From NCBI RefSeq assembly GCF_030064165.1, contig NZ_CP125947.1:4278001-4342000 (forward strand): a stretch of DNA of 64,000 bases. The letters are read 5' to 3'. Numbering within the stretch: the first letter of the stretch is position 1; every line of letters starts with the position of its first letter. The position numbers and the translations under genes are program-made. Origin of the DNA: Comamonas resistens (GTDB lineage Bacteria; Pseudomonadota; Gammaproteobacteria; Burkholderiales; Burkholderiaceae_C). This document shows, one piece after another, positions 59,865-62,419 of the stretch. Below the pieces are notes generated by a model that worked only from the letters and a program-made list of their open reading frames with translations, ran no database searches and was not told the DNA's origin.

Positions 59865-60242
59865 AGATCTCCTCTCACTTCCTGACACATCTGGCGCCAG
59901 TCATTGTCATGACCACAGCTTAATGGCGGCCGCATGGACTGAAGACGCCGCAAGCTGACTGCATGCACACTGCCTTGATCGCAATACAGGGCATGATCGA
60001 CTCACTAGACATCACAGCAGTTACATAAGAATAGTCAATCAGAGAGCATGAATTCCTCAATATTCATAGCATCCATCACATGATTGATAACAATATATGG
60101 GCGCTCTCATGTATTTCAAGTGCTGTTGAAGAGAAGTAACTCCCTCGTTATCGAGACAAGGCCACGGACTTGAAATCCGTACGAGAGGGCTTACATACTT
60201 GGCAACATATTTGTGCCAAGCACAGCCTCGGAGCCCATCACC
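59865..60242. other. Gene-free stretch upstream of the YqcC-like gene
   Basis: About 380 bases without a convincing gene. It includes an AT-rich part (60020-60110) and a tRNA-Ser-like fragment at 60144-60185. No clear promoter or repeat otherwise. Confidence 0.45.
60144..60185 (+). other. tRNA-Ser(TGA)-like fragment
   Basis: ACGGA-CTTGAAA-TCCGT (60164-60180) is a perfect five-bp anticodon arm with anticodon TGA. The preceding TCGAGACAAGGCC resembles a shortened Ser D arm. An outer pair CTCGT/ACGAG closes it. No T arm, long variable arm or acceptor is present, so it is not a functional tRNA gene. Confidence 0.35.
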
Positions 60243-60614
60243 ATGACCACCCCAAACATCCACAACGAACTGCGCGAGCAACTGCAGCAACTGCAGGCTG
60301 AGCTGCAGCTGCAAAAGCTGTGGTCATCCGTGGCGCCTGACCCCAAGGCGCTGGAGTCCACCGTCCCTTTCATGTATGACACGCTCAAGATCCATGAATG
60401 GCTGCAGTGGGTCTATATCCCGCGCCTGCATGCGCTGATCGATGCCGATGGCGTTCTGCCACATCAAAGCCATGTCTTCCCCCTGGCCGAGCATGAGTGG
60501 GAAAAGCGCACCGACTTTGACAAACAGCATCTGCTGCGCCTCATCAACCGCATCGATGCCACACTCAACGGCTGCGCAATGACACCAGACCTGCCGCAAG
60601 AATCCCAGGGCTGA
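60243..60614 (+). CDS. YqcC-family protein (DUF446)
   Basis: About 123 residues. LREQLQQLQAELQLQKLWSSVAPDPKALESTVPFMYDTLKIHEWLQWVYIPRLHALIDADGVLPHQSHVFPLAEHEW carries the DUF446 pattern: paired helices, 'PF..DTL...EWLQWVFIPRM'. E. coli YqcC lies beside the pseudouridine synthase TruC, but no such gene is nearby here. The ATG at 60243 is chosen. Function unknown. Confidence 0.88.
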   Translation: MTTPNIHNELREQLQQLQAELQLQKLWSSVAPDPKALESTVPFMYDTLKIHEWLQWVYIPRLHALIDADGVLPHQSHVFPLAEHEWEKRTDFDKQHLLRLINRIDATLNGCAMTPDLPQESQG

Positions 60615-60705: not shown

Positions 60706-61866
60706 TCAGGCAGCGACTGCCGCTTCCTTCTTGCTGACCGCTGCCGCCTCACGGCGTTGCAGCACGGCTTGTGACAGCTCTTCCAGCGTGGACAGAGAGT
60801 CGTCCCAGCCCAGGCATGCGTCGGTAATGCTCTGACCATAGGTCAGATTGCAGACCTCATCCTTGCCCGGGGTGAACTTCTGGGCGCCGCCGACCAGATG
60901 GCCTTCGATCATCACGCCGAACACGCTGCTCGAGCCACCAGCAATCTGGCCGGCGATATCGCGCGCAACATCCTTCTGGCGTTCATGCTGCTTGTTGCTG
61001 TTGGCATGGCTGCAGTCCACCATCAGCGAAGGCGTCAGACCCGCAGCCTCCAGGTCTCTGCAGGCGGCTGCCACATGCTCGGCGTCATAGTTGGGGGTCT
61101 TGCCGCCGCGCAGAATCACGTGGCAGTCCTGATTGCCGCCCGTGTGCACGATGGCGACCTGGCCGTTCTTGTGCACCGACAGGAAGTGGTGACCGCGGCT
61201 GGCCGACTGAATCGCATCGGTGGCAATGCGGATATTGCCGTCCGTGCCGTTCTTGAAACCTATCGGCGCCGAGATGCCCGAAGCCAGCTCGCGGTGCACC
61301 TGGCTTTCGGTGGTGCGGGCACCGATCGCGCCCCAGCTGATCAGGTCGCCAATGTACTGGGGCGAGATCACGTCCAGGAATTCGCTGGCCGCAGGCACAC
61401 CCAGGCGGTTGATGTCGATCAGCAGTTGGCGCGCGATGCGCAGGCCTTCGTCAATGCGGTAGCTCTGATCCAGGTAGGGATCGTTGATCAGCCCCTTCCA
61501 GCCCACGGTGGTACGGGGCTTTTCGAAGTAGACACGCATCACCACTTCCAGCGTGTCCTTGTACTGCTCGCGCACCACGGCCAGTCGGCGTGCGTAGTCC
61601 AGAGCCGCAGCGGGATCGTGAATCGAGCAAGGGCCGACGATGACCAGCAGACGGTCATCCTGCGCACGCATGATGTTGTGGATGCTGCGGCGGGTATCGC
61701 CGATCAGAGTCTCGACGGCCGTACCGCGAATCGGGAAGAAGCGAATGAGGTGCTCTGGAGGGGGTAACACTGTGATGTCCTTGATACGTGCGTCGTCGGT
61801 CTGGCCTGTCTTGGGAGAACCGGTGCGATACCAGGAATCGGTAGAGGAAGTGTTCAGAGCAGTCAT
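60706..61866 (-). CDS. aroG: 3-deoxy-7-phosphoheptulonate (DAHP) synthase
   Basis: First enzyme of the shikimate pathway: phosphoenolpyruvate plus erythrose-4-phosphate gives DAHP. 386 residues, class I (AroFGH) type. LLVIVGPCSIHDPAAALDYA, MRVYFEKPRTTVGWKGLINDP, ISWGAIGARTTESQVHRELASG, GFKNGTDGNIRIATDAI and LMVDCSHANSNKQ are the active-site blocks, with metal-binding Cys (PCSI) and His (CSHAN). The Tyr-, Phe- or Trp-sensitive subtype cannot be read by eye, so the symbol could be aroF or aroH. Its leader carries an aromatic attenuator (61925-62052). No other shikimate gene is adjacent. Confidence 0.93.
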   Translation of the reverse strand: MTALNTSSTDSWYRTGSPKTGQTDDARIKDITVLPPPEHLIRFFPIRGTAVETLIGDTRRSIHNIMRAQDDRLLVIVGPCSIHDPAAALDYARRLAVVREQYKDTLEVVMRVYFEKPRTTVGWKGLINDPYLDQSYRIDEGLRIARQLLIDINRLGVPAASEFLDVISPQYIGDLISWGAIGARTTESQVHRELASGISAPIGFKNGTDGNIRIATDAIQSASRGHHFLSVHKNGQVAIVHTGGNQDCHVILRGGKTPNYDAEHVAAACRDLEAAGLTPSLMVDCSHANSNKQHERQKDVARDIAGQIAGGSSSVFGVMIEGHLVGGAQKFTPGKDEVCNLTYGQSITDACLGWDDSLSTLEELSQAVLQRREAAAVSKKEAAVAA

Positions 61867-61924: not shown

Positions 61925-61959
61925 AAAAAAAACCGCCGGGCTTTGCAGCTTCGGCGGTT
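61925..61959 (-). terminator. Attenuator terminator in the DAHP synthase leader
   Basis: On the minus strand AACCGCCG and CGGCGGTT form a perfect 8-bp stem around a 13-base loop and are followed by a U run (T8 counting the last two stem bases). It lies 58 bases before the DAHP synthase start and 30 bases after the leader-peptide stop. CGGCGG in the leader-peptide codons (62001-62006) can pair with the left arm CCGCCG, giving the competing antiterminator. Confidence 0.9.
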
Positions 61960-61989
61960 CTTTGGGAGGTGTTTGCAGGGTGCGCGCTC

Positions 61990-62052
61990 TTACCTCTCAG
62001 CCGCCGGGGGCGAGAACCAAAAGTAAAAGAAATAGGCGCGTTGCGTTTGCAT
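61990..62052 (-). CDS. Leader peptide with seven aromatic codons
   Basis: A 20-codon frame reads MQTQRAYFFYFWFSPPAAER and ends in TAA. The codons at positions 7-13 are Tyr-Phe-Phe-Tyr-Phe-Trp-Phe, which is far beyond chance and typical of attenuator leader peptides. It is followed by the terminator hairpin and then the DAHP synthase. Scarcity of charged Tyr, Phe or Trp tRNA should stall the ribosome here and allow the CCGGCGG stretch to block the terminator. The Shine-Dalgarno sequence is weak (GAAAG close to the ATG); an in-frame TTG nine bases upstream is an alternative start. Too short for ordinary gene callers. Confidence 0.88.
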   Translation of the reverse strand: MQTQRAYFFYFWFSPPAAER

Positions 62053-62385
62053 GTCTTTCAATGTAGCACAGCTCTTTTGCATTGCAACATCCGCCACCCG
62101 CGCCACTGTCCTGTCAAAAATTGCTTCCTCCTCTGAAATAGTGCATTTTTCAAAATTTCTTACATTGCAGTATTTTTGTGTTTTTTCTTATTTTTTAGAA
62201 TTTTATTGAAATCAATTCTTTAAATACAAGAATTTATGCAATTTTCCATCAAACCAACAATATTCACGCTCGAACCCCACAAAGCCCTCAAAAAACCCTG
62301 CGGGTAGGCGATCTACTGCAGTTTTCCGCAGACGTTTTGGCCGCAAACGGTGTTTAGCGAATGGTCCTTGCAGCACTTTGAAATG
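62053..62385 (-). promoter_or_regulatory. AT-rich promoter region of the DAHP synthase leader
   Basis: About 330 bases with no gene. Near the leader peptide the minus strand has TTGCAA, 16 bases, and an extended -10 TGCTACATT, which would start the message just before the ATG. TTGACA at 62117-62112 is a second -35 candidate without a clear -10. The part at 62150-62230 is strongly AT-rich and could act as an UP element. Confidence 0.45.
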
Positions 62386-62419
62386 AAAAAACCCCGCTCT
62401 GCCATGCAAAGCGGGGTTT
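62386..62419 (-). terminator. Terminator of tldD
   Basis: On the minus strand AAACCCCGCT and AGCGGGGTTT form a perfect 10-bp stem and are followed by TTT. It begins about 37 bases after the tldD stop. Confidence 0.9.

Follow-up and report, generated by a model that had tools for sequence, protein, structure and literature searches.

The E. coli operons ilvGMEDA and thrABC each have an attenuator whose leader reads several end products that share a pathway. The leader considered here would be multivalent in the same sense, but those of ilvGMEDA and thrABC carry branched-chain or Thr/Ile codons. An attenuator acting on a DAHP synthase gene, aroR-aroF of C. glutamicum, was reportedly described by Neshat et al. 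in 2014. In this published system, aroR with its Phe-Tyr-Phe motif precedes aroF (PMC11802643, PMC4046766), and one account describes the attenuator as responding when Phe is limiting but as unaffected by Tyr, even though Tyr occurs in the leader (PMC11802643). The E. coli leaders trpL, pheL (pheA) and pheST likewise combine leader codons with termination before a pathway gene, but read one amino acid each, and the E. coli DAHP synthase genes named in the same source are controlled by TyrR and TrpR, with no attenuation (PMC11802643). For S. meliloti trpL (rnTrpL/peTrpL), an RNA is described that begins at the leader ATG and is released as a small leaderless mRNA; this system reads Trp, and its RNA and peptide have reported roles in trans (PMC7298713).

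Here we analysed a putative attenuator of Comamonas resistens (GCF_030064165.1, NZ_CP125947.1, positions 4,278,001 to 4,342,000); the 64,000-nt stretch is referred to as the window. An earlier note on this DNA had held that classical attenuators read mainly one amino acid, which applies to trpL, pheL and pheST and fails for the multivalent ilvGMEDA and thrABC. It had also known of no described DAHP synthase example in this group. With aroR/aroF as a precedent, neither this class of mechanism nor its target gene is new; for Burkholderiales, searches of an open-licence library (most subscription papers lie outside it) turned up no description of a DAHP synthase attenuator. The present leader did not come up in term searches of PMC4603805, PMC2965389, PMC1262725, PMC3521395, PMC4035088 and PMC6337395, and for B. 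cenocepacia 82 short attenuated or processed 5'UTRs are listed in PMC5688073. Likened by description, aroR-aroF and the present locus share an aromatic leader peptide before a DAHP synthase gene and, as proposed here, ribosome-mediated attenuation; aroR-aroF differs in that it reportedly lacks Trp, belongs to Actinobacteria and is reported to show no Tyr response. The present locus is set apart by its Trp-containing run, its bacterial group, how widely it is conserved and the probable leaderless design.

Results and discussion

Organization of the locus

The leader, the terminator and the DAHP synthase gene all lie on the minus strand, as do the other elements described here unless stated otherwise. 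Read in this direction, tldD (63916 to 62456, NCBIfam equivalog TldD) is followed by its own terminator-like hairpin of 14 pairs (62389–62419), an AT-rich spacer, a promoter-like element, the leader ORF, the leader terminator and the DAHP synthase gene. Since tldD possesses a separate hairpin, the leader hairpin need not serve as its terminator. The AT-rich part of this spacer (62130–62260) might act as an upstream element of the leader promoter, or as a site for binding. The leader ORF (61990–62052) runs from an ATG at 62052–62050 through 20 codons to a TAA at 61992–61990 and encodes MQTQRAYFFYFWFSPPAAER, in which codons 7–13 (62014–62034), the putative regulatory codons, translate to Tyr Phe Phe Tyr Phe Trp Phe. 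The terminator consists of AACCGCCG (61959–61952), a 13-nt loop, CGGCGGTT (61938–61931) and a T8 run (61932–61925), and the ATG of the DAHP synthase gene (60706–61866) begins at 61866, 58 nt past T8. The earlier note had drawn this order of 20-codon peptide, 8-bp hairpin with T8 and DAHP synthase gene at the right coordinates, with all three aromatic residues inside a seven-codon run, and had left out the strand. On the plus strand, a convergent 133-aa ORF without an NCBIfam match at E 0.001 lies downstream of the DAHP synthase gene (60213–60614).

The 386-aa product belongs to the AroFGH family (TIGR00034, 528 bits, cut-off 173). Its best NCBIfam model was AroG, with a score just under the cut-off (550 versus 568 bits), while the AroH subfamily model scored over its own (500 versus 463 bits), so that the allosteric type is not assignable from these scores; solved relatives include Phe-regulated enzymes. 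Among the best 80 of 573 matches, the closest named relatives were Comamonas (98% identity to a Comamonas MAG, 95% to C. testosteroni), and 79 of these 80 loci carry an aromatic ORF before the DAHP synthase gene, the 80th being cut by a contig end. A second DAHP synthase gene in the genome (L002, G000:C1:4937402-4938532), 54% identical, lacks an aromatic leader. Upstream regions of such paralogues served as a negative control, and only one of 30 (including one cut by a contig end, L331) contained an aromatic short ORF (L304), without the core seen in the family.

Conservation of the aromatic leader

The family sample comprised 150 genomes of the GTDB family, covering 141 genera, and yielded 142 upstream regions of the main orthologue; of the remaining eight genomes, seven had only a weaker or fragment match and one had none. 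A member of a tandem pair with 59% identity (L224), which has the leader, was counted as an orthologue, and three regions without a leader were excluded, namely its tandem partner (L222, 64%), a second copy in G098 (L221, 64%) and a short sequence (L225, 59%). In total, 231 upstream regions minus nine paralogue or extra copies and two contig-cut sequences left 220, of which 214 were distinct. The leader ORF was present in 141 of the 142 family orthologue upstreams, and in 139 it contained at least five aromatic codons in eight. Two degenerate leaders (L163, L213) showed four aromatic codons in eight together with the same tail and terminator, and the last region (L218) was contig-cut with the terminator still visible.

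A run of this kind is rare by composition. Among 1,036 short ORFs of the window (8–45 aa, both strands), at least six aromatic codons in eight were found in the leader ORF only, and when 107 of the 214 upstream regions were each shuffled five times with dinucleotides preserved, none of the 535 products exceeded five, whereas 205 of the 214 real regions had at least six. To judge from these comparisons, the arrangement of leader and DAHP synthase gene is not due to chance. T-rich sequence does readily encode Phe, and an ordinary terminator with an incidental aromatic ORF, the DAHP synthase gene being regulated otherwise, would leave room for those Ralstonia measurements (see below) that attenuation does not explain. 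The shuffles, the separate tldD hairpin, the conservation, the covariation described below and the paralogue control all argue against this explanation, which we consider very unlikely.

All 214 leaders contain Phe, 211 contain Tyr and 204 contain Trp. The three occur together in 201, so that the three-residue run noted for the window leader is widespread and not universal. On average, a leader holds 4.35 Phe, 1.62 Tyr and 1.01 Trp codons, with Trp mostly present as one codon. The predominance of Phe, the insensitivity of C. glutamicum aroF to Tyr and the Phe effect in Ralstonia mutants would fit a variant of the attenuation reading in which mainly Phe is sensed and the Tyr and Trp codons are minor. 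Sensing of Phe alone, however, need not preserve Tyr and Trp at the frequencies just given, nor the TGG seen at the core position of 180 leaders among 201 (these were anchored by a pattern to which TGG itself partly belongs). We regard the variant as possible rather than probable, although its odds overlap with those of the reading of which it is a part. That Phe, Tyr and Trp are all sensed is the version we moderately favour.

At a given position of the run, one relative may have Phe where another has Tyr or Trp, the number and spacing of aromatic codons vary, and synonymous codons are used freely (TTT 597, TTC 334, TAC 227, TAT 119). This interchange points to selection on the residues. In the tail, a GGCGG-type motif is read in frame 0 in 164 leaders, in frame 2 in 37 and in frame 1 in two (not located in 11), and conservation of the nucleotides despite the differing frame points to selection on the RNA. 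A peptide function of the conserved tail (PGGREA, HRTGGGEA) was considered and rejected in view of this variation in frame. Residue selection in the run combined with RNA selection in the tail is what an attenuator predicts, and the codon patterns suggest that the leader ORF is translated. In one relative (L169), two aromatic-rich short ORFs precede the DAHP synthase gene.

Another reading is a nascent-chain arrest peptide of the TnaC type, sensing a free amino acid instead of tRNA charging. In its favour, the core YFWF is strongly conserved, and Ser follows the aromatic run in 155 of 201 leaders. Arrest peptides have fixed critical residues, whereas the aromatic positions here swap among Phe, Tyr and Trp and differ in number and spacing; moreover, the Ser codon sits in a stem of the RNA (1:2, see below) and is explicable by pairing. 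An arrest mechanism thus appears highly improbable to us.

Alternative RNA folds

Four segments can be drawn that would form a protector (1:2), an antiterminator (2:3) and a terminator (3:4). Segment 1 (TTCTCGCC, 62009–62016), placed by the fold of this leader and by its relatives, pairs with segment 2 (CGGCGG CT GAGAGG T, 61992–62006), which lies in the ORF tail and can pair with segment 1 or 3. Segment 3 (ACCTC..AACCGCCG, 61952–61970) is both the antiterminator partner and the left arm of the terminator, and segment 4 with the T-run (61925–61938) supplies the right arm. The protector hairpin had not been part of the earlier note, which had pointed to the complementarity between CGGCGG and the CCGCCG of the terminator left arm as a mutually exclusive fold; the relatives support this reading. 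The CGGCGG (62006–62001) falls in codons Pro16-Ala17-Ala18.

A terminator, defined as a hairpin with at least five G–C pairs and a T-run, was found within 150 nt after the leader in 214 of 214 regions versus 5 of 214 shuffled ones. The alignment across relatives suggested in the earlier note thus reveals aromatic codons and hairpin conserved far beyond close relatives. Folding energy on its own is weak (146 nt folded alone, z –1.75, with 10 of 200 shuffles as stable), and the case for an attenuator therefore rests on comparison. When the RNA was folded starting 12 nt past a stall in the middle of the run and ending with the left arm, this arm paired with the ORF tail over at least five bases in 212 of 214 leaders (a count without a shuffle baseline); in the other two (L174, L208) the antiterminator pairing was not found by MFE.

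Covariation was examined in an alignment (A1) of 126 rows, similarity-thinned from 135. In the 2:3 helix, GC changes to AU at columns 70/150 in eight rows and at columns 69/151 in two, and the eight rows may represent one clade. The covariation score was 0.076 versus 0.056 in shuffled alignments and was reached in 0 of 500 shuffles; for one other measure, 118 of 500 shuffles did as well. Sliding the helix by +2 and +3 gave 16 and 22 double-change cells versus 13 unshifted, while paired cells fell to 31% and 59% versus 87.5% unshifted. Where column 150 carries U, the right arm of the terminator keeps G (UG in 10 rows), indicating that the change follows 2:3 and not 3:4. A comparable exchange separates families, CCGGCGG/CCGCCGG (ORF/arm) of the own family becoming CTGGCGG/CCGCCAG in 10 of 26 loci, and at least five ORF:arm pairs were present in 25 of 26 other-family loci, two of which (L246, L261) are doubtful. 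The outer four pairs of the protector, TCTC:GAGA, were formed in 95–96% of the 126 rows. Taken together, the comparative evidence, with a mixed slide control, supports an antiterminator that would exclude the terminator.

A structured and conserved 5' leader would also be expected of a riboswitch or T-box-like RNA that has no translated leader. Rfam searches of the window region and 20 relatives (21 sources) gave no match at the gathering score, the weak matches in the window all stayed below half of it, and the aromatic run, where residues are under selection, speaks against an untranslated element; we thus attach hardly any probability to this possibility.

The spacing between codons and pairing segments also fits a stalled ribosome. 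The gap between the Trp codon and CGGCGG is 10 nt in the window, and 198 of 202 relatives have the motif starting 11–18 nt past their last Trp codon (by a loose pattern, with an uncertainty of 1–2 nt). As a ribosome covers about 10–11 nt beyond the A-site codon, stalls on codons 7–12 would free segment 2, and a ribosome at the stop codon would cover it.

Start of the leader transcript

The putative leader promoter (62060–62087) consists of TTGCAA (62087–62082), a 16-nt spacer and TACATT (62065–62060) with an extended –10 TG at 62068–62067. A generic promoter scan reported no minus-strand promoter, and the assignment hence rests on comparison. A TAnnnT box starting 11–15 nt before the leader ATG was found in 200 of 214 distinct relatives versus 10 of 642 control windows, and the per-position information of the 214 leaders showed a single strong block upstream of the ATG, TGCTACATT at –16 to –8; positions –2 and –1 were pyrimidines, and a purine-rich site for the ribosome was lacking. 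A Shine-Dalgarno-like 4-mer preceded only one of the 214 leader ATGs versus 94 of 131 placeable DAHP synthase starts. The E. coli trpL, pheL and pheST leaders start from a Shine-Dalgarno site. The conserved promoter-like box directly precedes the leader ATG and thus lies upstream of the hairpin. From the position of the –10 box, we infer that the RNA starts at the AUG or within a few bases of it. The leader mRNA, in a feature beyond the earlier note, is therefore probably leaderless, with its 5' end at the AUG. Leaderless transcripts are reported for B. cenocepacia (PMC4603805).

Distribution of the leader

A covariance model matched 37 of 150 order-wide genomes at E 0.01, four in the own family, 30 in twelve other families and three weakly in three more, and a DAHP synthase gene followed the match in all 29 loci inspected. 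Among further upstream regions, the leader was present in 13 of 28 taken from the best DAHP synthase matches of 100 order genomes and in 0 of 20 lower-ranked ones; as the latter were picked from genomes without a model match, the two fractions should not be read as an order-wide frequency. Outside the order, at class level, one of 40 upstreams (picked from 84 genomes with a match) had a leader. The leader is thus found almost throughout the family, has a patchy distribution across the order and is rare among the regions sampled outside it. The sole leader-like ORF among the 40 out-of-order regions (L279 in G308) ends in RFYRWYYFPKPPAEEGVRAF and possibly reflects transfer or a misplaced lineage. 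No second leader copy was found in the own genome at E 1, and a distant DNA search gave no copies on plasmids.

Proposed mechanism

We propose an attenuator of the trp/his type that would jointly read the charging of tRNA-Phe, tRNA-Tyr and tRNA-Trp. Transcription would start at the A of the leader AUG or right beside it, and a ribosome would load directly on the 5' end. With plentiful aromatic aminoacyl-tRNAs, it would reach the stop codon and cover segment 2, leaving the 3:4 terminator to form. If one of the three were short, it would stall on codons 7–12 with segment 1 covered and segment 2 free; the 2:3 antiterminator would then form and RNA polymerase would continue into the DAHP synthase gene. 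When no ribosome is present, 1:2 would form and transcription would terminate.

Expression data from R. solanacearum bear on this model. According to PMC6379268, aroG1-lacZ and aroG2-lacZ rose from about 50 to 500–1,070 units (about 10- to 20-fold) on deletion of the other DAHP synthase gene, and 1 mM Phe lowered aroG-lacZ 2- to 3-fold in these mutants, while Phe changed the wild-type fusion little (47 to 40 units). Both fusions were also raised in the double mutant (409–743 units). Self-deletion in rich medium gave 58 versus 47 units for aroG1-lacZ and 84 versus 49 for aroG2-lacZ (PMC6379268). A simple sensor of the aromatic pool would predict a rise on self-deletion, and these values count against it. 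The fusions held the promoter region, and expression was measured with Phe as the only amino acid (PMC6379268). The data agree with an attenuator only in part and prove nothing, and either of the two aroG genes may be the one that bears the leader. Because of the self-deletion values we lowered our confidence, and still consider it very probable that ribosome-mediated transcription attenuation by the aromatic leader controls the DAHP synthase gene.

The terminated leader RNA of about 130 nt would be a small leaderless mRNA. By analogy with the roles reported for rnTrpL and peTrpL, this RNA or its peptide might act in trans on further genes of aromatic metabolism or translation, and one leader would then sense the whole aromatic pool across the order, an extension that we consider speculative and rather improbable.

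Conclusions

Through this leader, many beta-proteobacteria most likely induce the first enzyme of aromatic amino acid synthesis when Phe, Tyr and Trp become scarce. If the model is true, Burkholderiales would gain a defined control of shikimate entry, in which a single run of codons would integrate three end products where their pathways begin in common. The attenuator may account for part of the aroG expression changes in Ralstonia, and with 214 distinct natural variants, leaderless initiation and attenuation would be open to joint study.
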